From a bacterium (GTDB lineage: Bacteria; ARS69): DNA of 17,980 nt. Positions 13,995 to 15,491 of the stretch are shown here, in pieces. Location of the stretch: contig JALGZO010000705.1 of the NCBI GenBank assembly GCA_025774865.1, positions 1-17,980 of the forward strand. The letters run 5' to 3'. The translations under genes and the position numbers were made by a program. The notes under the pieces are model-generated. The model was not told the DNA's origin. It did no database searches and saw only the letters and a list, made by a program, of their open reading frames with translations. Every line of letters begins with the position of its first letter. Positions within the stretch are counted from its first letter, which is position 1.

Positions 13995-15491
13995 ATGACC
14001 CGACTCGGACTGGAACGCGAGATCGTCGAGCAGGGCGCCTACGAGCGCGCCGTGTCCCGGTTCAAGGAACAGCGGATTCGTCTGCCGAAGTTCTCGGAGC
14101 TAGCGGATCCCGCGCTGATCCCGGACTCCGTGCGGACCTCGCTCGACGGCGTGGATCCGGACGCGGCCGACCCCCGCAATCTCTTCCGCGTCCACTGGTA
14201 CAACGCGGCCGATCGGCGCGCGCGGCTCTCGGTGCCGGACCATCTCGTACTTCCCCAGAAGCTGACCGGCGTCCGCGCACCCATCGTCGTCGCGCTCGGA
14301 ACGAACTTCCCGATGATCCGCGCGCACAAGGTGCTGGCCGCGTACGGCTGCCTGGCCCCGCGCATCGTCACCGGGCAGTTCGATCCCACCGAGCACAAGG
14401 CGATCTGGCCCTCCACCGGCAACTACTGTCGGGGCGGCGTGGCGATCTCGCGGATCATGGGCTGCCGCGGGGTGGCCGTGCTGCCCGAGGGGATGAGCCG
14501 GGAGCGCTTCGACTGGCTCGCCCGGTGGGTGAGCCATCCGGACGACGTGATTCTCACCCCCGGCTCCGAGAGCAACGTGAAGGAGATCTACGACGAGTGC
14601 GGCCAGCTCGAGAAGGACCCGCAGAATGTCATCTTCAACCAGTTCCGCGAGTTCGGGAATCACCTCGTGCACTGGGCATGTACGGGCCGCGCCCTGGAAA
14701 CGGTCCACGAGTCGCTGCGGCGAGAGAGACCGGACCTCGAGATCGCCGCTTACGTGTCGGCGACCGGTTCGGCGGGCACGCTGGCCGCCGGTGACTACGT
14801 CAAGGAGAAGACCGGCGCGAAGATCGCGGCCGTGGAAGCGCTCGAGTGCCCCACTCTCCTCTACAACGGGTACGGCGAGCACAACATCCAGGGCATCGGC
14901 GACAAACACGTGCCGCTGATCCACAACGTGATGAACACGGACTTCGTGATCGCGGTGTCGGATCGCGCCTCGGATTCCTCCAACGTCCTCTTCAACTCCA
15001 CCGCTGGCCGCGACTACCTGGTCAAGCGCCACGGCGTCGATGCCGCACTTCTCGACCGGATGCCGGCGCTCGGGTTGTCGAGCCTCGCGAACGTGCTCGC
15101 GTCCATCAAGCTCGCGAAGTATCTGGATCTCGCCGAGCACGAGGCCGTGTTCACCGTCGCCACCGACGGGGCCGAGCTCTACGAGACCGAGCTGGACAAG
15201 GCCGGGGAGAAGCTCTTCCCGGACGGATTCGACGCGCTCGCCGCCGCGGAGACCTTCGGGCGGTACTGGCTCGGGGCCGCCACCGATCACCTGCTCGAGC
15301 TGACGCGGCCGGATCGACGGCGGATCTTCAACCTCGGCTACTTCACGTGGGTGGAACAGCAAGGCGTGCCGATCCACGAGTTCGACCGGCGCCTCTCGCC
15401 CGAATTCTGGACCGGGCTCCAGGATCTCCTCCCCGCCTGGGACGCGATGATCGACGAATTCAACTCCCGCACCGGAATCGCGGCCGATTGA
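13995..15491 (+). CDS. Fold-type II PLP-dependent enzyme, cysteine-synthase-like, function unknown
   Basis: Cytoplasmic protein of 498 residues with the hallmarks of the tryptophan-synthase-beta/cysteine-synthase fold. The probable PLP lysine is K112 in [12 protein letters not shown], the substrate-loop motif is STGNYCRGG (140-148, equivalent to TSGNxG), and the likely phosphate-binding loop is ATGSAGT (256-262). It is longer than cysteine synthases (about 310 residues) because of an N-terminal extension (1-90) and a C-terminal region (400-498). The ATG at 13995 lies 9 nt after the SsnA stop with a GGAGGGTAGGA run upstream. The operon position suggests a beta-elimination or beta-replacement on an amino-acid intermediate such as 2,3-diaminopropionate, but this is inference. 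It is not a recognisable YgeX. Confidence 0.75.

Follow-up and report, generated by a model that had tools for sequence, protein, structure and literature searches.

A PLP enzyme of cysteine-synthase fold in reductive urate clusters, a candidate 2,3-diaminopropionate lyase outside the YgeX family

Introduction

What reaction should be assigned to a long pyridoxal phosphate (PLP) enzyme of the cysteine-synthase fold, encoded in the draft genome of an ARS69 bacterium, and what does its operon tell about it? The gene lies on contig JALGZO010000705.1 (assembly GCA_025774865.1), whose 17,980 nucleotides were analysed as a whole and are referred to here as the window. Our literature search found papers on the pathway discussed below and none on this enzyme (PLP1) itself, and its family has no curated name in the profile libraries searched.

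The steps of reductive urate degradation were established in 2025, and the pathway was reported to be limited to selected anaerobes; the order of ureido removal was reported as open, and an R configuration, hence D intermediates, was proposed but not settled (PMC12990295). Its enzymes act in the order XDH-YgfK-SsnA-HyuA-YgeW-YgeY-YgeX, with pyruvate as the end product: XdhD converts urate to yanthine, YgfK yanthine to dihydro-yanthine and SsnA the latter to ureidomethyl-hydantoin, HyuA gives 2,3-diureidopropionate, YgeW and YgeY take off the two carbamoyl groups, and YgeX converts 2,3-diaminopropionate to pyruvate (PMC12507026). YgeX was scored in that study by the Pfam profile PF00291 (PMC12507026). 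This profile cannot separate PLP1 from YgeX, and YgeX calls based on it therefore lump different enzymes.

Results

Fold and predicted PLP site of PLP1

A first-pass annotation had described a 498-residue PLP protein with K112 and an ATGSAGT motif (residues 256-262), and the open reading frame and the residues named are all present:

13995..15491, + strand: PLP1, CysK-fold PLP enzyme of 498 aa, proposed 2,3-diaminopropionate lyase (ATG start; homologue alignments, profiles and model)
14328..14330, + strand: codon of K112, the predicted PLP lysine (invariant in homologues; starts model helix 112-125)
14412..14438, + strand: STGNYCRGG, residues 140-148, predicted substrate-carboxylate/PLP loop (aligned to the cysteine synthase PTSGN loop)
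14766..14780, + strand: GSAGT, residues 258-262, predicted phosphate-binding loop (homologue and cysteine synthase alignments)
14901..14903, + strand: codon of D303 (GIGDKH), aligned to the Ala of cysteine synthase GIGAGF and family-invariant

The profile PF00291 matched PLP1 at threshold (35.2 bits, Pfam cut-off 35). The AlphaFold model (pLDDT 94.3) had a beta-cyanoalanine synthase/O-acetylserine (OAS) sulfhydrylase as its top PDB match (Z 35, residues 44-406), and its core (residues ~40-410) superposed on cysteine synthases and beta-cyanoalanine synthase with Z 32-35 at 17-28% identity, which bears out the fold class proposed earlier. The large extensions also noted then amount to ~40 residues before and ~90 after this CysK-like core. 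By profile, modelled fold, conserved lysine and phosphate loop, PLP1 is a fold-type II PLP enzyme (PALP, PF00291) with predicted cofactor binding.

Relatives at 57-69% identity are spread over genomes from many phyla; 446 stretches were confirmed, and of these the best 80 were retrieved. Across 60 homologues ~100 columns are invariant, including H111-K112, PSTGN (139-143), GSxGT (258-262) and S362; H111, K112, S140-T141-G142-N143, G258, S259, G261 and T262, invariant in these 60, are likewise so in a 26-sequence set with identity down to 35%, and K112 is invariant across the family spanning 35-69% identity. The lysine context, remarked on as unusual and without SxKxR, reads P-M-I-R-A-H-K-V in the window and close relatives (P-M-I-x-A-H-K-V in the subfamily), with one residue extra, and P-T-G-A/S-H-K-V in distant members, which keep the ordinary PTGSxK spacing, the lysine being preceded by His and followed by Val. 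Because of the one-residue insertion HMMER aligns K112 to the column next to that of the CysK lysine, a shift that the wider family alignment resolves. Judged from these alignments, the PLP1 lysine is in the usual place, and it is the conserved flanking His and Val that are distinctive.

By curated equivalog models PLP1 is not a cysteine synthase (TIGR01139, 69.6 versus a cut-off of 350.95; TIGR01136, 65.3 versus 344.15; NF007989, 48.6 versus 387). A close characterised relative of unrelated function, which would have spoken against the first-pass reading, was not found in the collections searched: among solved structures the nearest are cysteine synthases, with 27-28% identity. An OrtB-like thiolase, raised since both are long PALPs, was rejected, as PLP1 has no match to NCBIfam OrtB.

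Urate genes in the window and its source genome

The operon with hydroxylase and amidohydrolase genes had been singled out as the best clue to function, and so it proved: the hydroxylase is a xanthine dehydrogenase (XDH) and the amidohydrolase is SsnA-like, and the XDH equivalog match, the SsnA-like gene and a convergent ygeW point to the reductive uric acid pathway.

10261..12909, + strand: selenium-dependent-type xanthine dehydrogenase, in the XdhD/XDH position (TIGR03311, 935.6 bits, cut-off 830)
12906..13985, + strand: SsnA-like amidohydrolase, short form of 359 aa (NF005540, 262 bits, cut-off 444; TIGR03314, 239.6, cut-off 455.5)
15488..16903, + strand: PLP2, second PALP enzyme (PF00291, 114.7 bits), whose TTG start overlaps the PLP1 stop
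17522..17980, - strand: YgeW-type knotted carbamoyltransferase, C-terminal third, cut by the contig end (NF005538, 223.8 bits, positions 240-384)

XDH carries its 2Fe-2S and molybdopterin domains on one chain (PF02738, PF20256, PF01315, PF01799, PF00111). Its frame opens at a TTG at 10195, and the conserved N-terminus suggests the ATG at 10261 as the start. Downstream of it, the SsnA-like gene ends 9 bases upstream of PLP1. Its product covers only positions ~58-340 of the SsnA profile, and its best match is SsnA. Since the short form scores well under the family cut-off, surveys of the SsnA family would probably miss PLP1-linked clusters. The short form is common to many PLP1-linked loci.

The ygeW gene, convergent to PLP2, is split over contigs C709 and C134 (window 17522-17980 and L088), with ~10 residues missing between the pieces relative to E. 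coli YgeW; its N-terminal part ends C134, behind ygeY and the C-terminal part of a YgfK-type protein. The same convergent order is found in one unbroken piece in four other loci (L005, L122, L123, L125). YgeY of the source genome scores over its cut-off (575.7 bits), and YgfK-type pieces, on C154 and C134, fall under the whole-protein cut-off because they are split and lack the middle domain. A D-hydantoinase over its cut-off lies on C417, where adjoining nitrilase-type and aldehyde-dehydrogenase-type genes suggest pyrimidine use and make its identity as HyuA uncertain; HyuA occurs in several related clusters. YgeX was not found in this genome (best match to the YgeX model 25 bits versus a cut-off of 532), an absence that is provisional and no proof in a draft assembly of 92.65% completeness and 8.3% contamination. 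We are highly confident that PLP1 and its neighbours belong to a reductive uric acid degradation cluster.

PLP1, SsnA and YgeX relatives in Acidobacteriota

Since the window's phylum offered only five genomes, statistics were drawn from a sample of 396 Acidobacteriota genomes. Of these, 64 carry a PLP1-family gene (36-69% identity), and 64 carry SsnA, which was scored at ~280 bits and above, with seven short forms hand-picked from the table in addition; YgeX relatives of at least 180 bits, none over the cut-off, occur in 45. PLP1 was present in 55/64 genomes with SsnA and 9/332 without it (p=5e-48), a p-value that overstates independence because genomes share ancestry. The physical linkage of PLP1 to SsnA, which does not depend on p, was within 20 kb in 43 cases and within 500 bases in 25. 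YgeX relatives were found in 18/64 genomes with SsnA and 27/332 without it, with only five linked. The true overlap of PLP1 and SsnA is higher than scored, since one locus (L127, from G308) has a short SsnA beside PLP1 that the SsnA table missed, and three of the seven SsnA genomes scored as lacking both PLP1 and YgeX carry a divergent PLP1 relative ~10 kb or less from SsnA.

YgeX relatives (190-390 bits, under the cut-off) coexist with PLP1 in 16 of the 55 Acidobacteriota genomes with both SsnA and PLP1; in four cases the two genes are linked, as direct neighbours in L112 and also in G366, G382 and G183. The two also occur together in G034 and G041, from which L061 and L072 come, and in Pleomorphomonas the SsnA cluster carries a YgeX relative with PLP1-PLP2 elsewhere in the genome. 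Among 50 PLP1 genomes, mutual exclusion was a trend that was not significant (3/21 versus 11/29, p=0.11). Strict mutual exclusion was rejected, as both coexist in some clusters, and the claim made here is accordingly one of replacement in many genomes. Where PLP1 and a YgeX relative occur together, either they are partly redundant or specialised enzymes, or the PLP1 reaction is related but different.

Carbamoyl-removing enzymes and PLP enzymes around PLP1

Of 82 loci, many of which are on short contigs, 30 have urate or carbamoyl-removing genes 10 kb or less from PLP1. Two carbamoyl-removing enzymes are present in 11 loci, in three kinds of pairing (YgeW with YgeY; ATCase-like with OTCase-like; M20 carbamoylase with nitrilase), and a fourth, OTC with YgeY, is found beside PLP1 in L111 and L120. 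That such pairs recur points to a diamino acid, left once two carbamoyl groups have been removed, as the substrate.

This bears on an alternative that keeps PLP1 in the urate pathway at another intermediate, with beta-elimination of albizziin (2-amino-3-ureidopropionate) releasing urea, or some other C-N/C-X exchange, and leaves diaminopropionate to PLP2 or the YgeX relative. It would explain why some SsnA clusters hold both PLP1 and a YgeX relative, side by side in L112, and why most clusters have a second PALP, and it fits the order of ureido removal reported as open (PMC12990295). Nevertheless, clusters where PLP1 is the only PALP candidate encode both ureido removals (OTC and YgeY in L111 and L120), so that PLP1 would act on a compound already stripped of its two carbamoyl groups, and we consider this alternative unlikely.

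PLP2 follows PLP1 in 53 of the 82 loci, usually within 60 bases. It combines a zinc-ribbon-like, Cys-rich N-terminus with a threonine-synthase fold (model pLDDT 93.5, best PDB match threonine synthase). Its orthologues occur in only eight of the 396 Acidobacteriota genomes, each of which also encodes a close PLP1 homologue, and of 31 acidobacterial loci examined 15 have another threonine-synthase-like PALP with a similar N-terminus, 25-30% identical to PLP2. PALPs of this threonine-synthase-like type with a Cys-rich N-terminus recur next to PLP1 in urate clusters, as in L131 (8628-9863), L136 (11144-12421) and L138 (4929-6149). Most clusters with PLP1 hold a second PLP enzyme, and by cluster context alone either of the two could be the lyase.

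Could the partner, then, be the diaminopropionate lyase and PLP1 its companion, for example a racemase or an aminoacrylate scavenger? PLP2 can be aligned to YgeX across 186 columns (hhalign 90%), whereas PLP1 lies outside the YgeX family (no match to TIGR03528/NF006058 at E <= 0.01; hhalign to YgeX 1.7%); PLP2 has an invariant Cys (Cys171, SCGN) at the position of YgeX D120, and a threonine-synthase-like PALP accompanies PLP1 in about half of the acidobacterial loci, as given above. The partner is, however, the variable element. Besides the scarcity of orthologous PLP2 in Acidobacteriota, PLP1 is the sole PLP lyase candidate in the stretch examined in L111, L120 and L139, where there is no threonine-synthase-like gene, and the carbamoylase-nitrilase loci L057, L068 and L070 have no PLP2. 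Near-complete PLP1 clusters without a YgeX relative in the stretch occur with PLP2 (L122, L123, L125, L126) and without it (L109, L111, L113, L114, L120). Because PLP1 is constant and the partner optional, we give the lyase step to PLP1 and regard its assignment to the partner as quite unlikely. A role of PLP2 with the other stereoisomer, as a racemase or D-specific lyase, is a guess; partners elsewhere have Thr or Ser, not Cys, at the D120 position, which weakens a division of labour by stereochemistry between PLP1 and PLP2, though such a split is possible.

Branches outside the urate clusters

In a quick tree of the PLP1 family (83 rows) the window enzyme falls in the urate-linked part, and a CoA-transferase/TauE-linked clade is separate. 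The branches with CoA-transferases (L063, L065, L071, L076) and with TauE/SafE (L084, L085) stand outside urate clusters. Their neighbours, and a core closest to cysteine synthases, would suit a general beta-eliminating lyase for 3-substituted alanines (cysteate, cysteine or serine derivatives) recruited to several pathways. Yet only 6 of the 83 rows belong to these branches, which group in a clade of their own, and SsnA accompanies PLP1 in 55 of the 64 PLP1 genomes of Acidobacteriota; so broad a role for the family seems to us improbable.

In the first group, from Burkholderiaceae and relatives, the PLP1 clade lies directly before the CoA-transferase genes, which suggests another catabolic use, and L063 has a luciferase-like gene near PLP1 as well. 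In the second, PLP1 homologues (55% identity) lie on conjugative plasmids of Rhizobium and Bosea (L084, 10786-13464; L085, 11926-21236) with a TauE/SafE exporter gene nearby. A cysteate or sulfonate lyase, raised by these neighbours on the two plasmids, was set aside, as the plasmid members are a small side branch.

Within the urate clusters, an actinomycete locus (L046, 634-9975) contains tryptophanase-like, F420-type LLM oxidoreductase, ATCase-like, OTCase-like and carbamate kinase genes, so that the F420 variant noted for Chloroflexota is now seen in Actinomycetota as well.

Discussion

From its genomic context, we lean towards PLP1 carrying out the YgeX step, 2,3-diaminopropionate to pyruvate and ammonia, with a cysteine-synthase ancestry and often with a threonine-synthase-like partner. 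The exact reaction is rated lower than the link to the pathway, since a YgeX relative is also present in some clusters. PLP1 is probably an independently evolved version of the final step of urate degradation, in the place usually held by YgeX.

In the mechanism that we propose, YgeW and YgeY would strip the two carbamoyl groups from 2,3-diureidopropionate, and the resulting 2,3-diaminopropionate would form an external aldimine with the PLP held on K112. Removal of the alpha-proton would expel the beta-amino group as ammonia, and the aminoacrylate released would hydrolyse to pyruvate and a second ammonia, with PLP2 as a possible accessory of the diaminopropionate step. In cysteine synthases the GIGAGF loop lies towards the side chain of the substrate; the acidic D303, in place of the loop Ala, would therefore suit the charged beta-ammonium group and may bind it. 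Against a YgeX-like role, PLP1 has T141 where YgeX has D120, its base for the D isomer of diaminopropionate.

More tentatively, PLP1 may found a second, independently evolved 2,3-diaminopropionate lyase family from the cysteine-synthase branch, which in many soil, marine and groundwater lineages would work with a threonine-synthase-like partner for the other stereoisomer, two enzymes thus replacing the single YgeX. If PLP1 is such a second lyase family, reductive urate degradation would extend well beyond gut anaerobes. A PLP1-based version of the pathway is seen here in environmental MAGs and isolates belonging to Acidobacteriota, Actinomycetota, Chloroflexota, Myxococcota, Planctomycetota, Gemmatimonadota, Pseudomonadota and others, and it widens where urate nitrogen can be recycled. 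The proposed function gives the family a testable reaction and bears on the questions of stereochemistry and ureido order in the pathway.

Comparison with known systems

What appears to be new here, as judged from sequence, is a known urate pathway run with a PALP family distinct from YgeX. In E. coli and C. difficile (PMC12507026) the cluster shares with the genome of the window the genes for XDH, YgfK, YgeW and YgeY, but has YgeX where PLP1, with or without a threonine-synthase-like enzyme, is found here; at the SsnA position the window has an SsnA-like protein, the short form under the family cut-off.

YgeX itself (E. coli, TIGR03528) is of the same fold class as PLP1, occupies the same slot in the reductive urate cluster and has a similar GNxxRG stretch (hhalign, 38 columns); it differs in having 398 residues and D120 (TDGN), as against 498 residues, T141 at that position (STGN) and a CysK-type core in PLP1.

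With the CysK-CBS branch (OAS sulfhydrylase, beta-cyanoalanine synthase, cystathionine beta-synthase) PLP1 shares the fold, the PLP lysine before a helix, and the S/T-S/T-G-N loop, NQF, GxGGT-like loop, HxIQGIG and GIS(S/G) motifs. It departs from that branch in its identity of at most 28%, in HKV around the lysine, D303 for Ala and the two terminal extensions, and in a genomic context that is catabolic.
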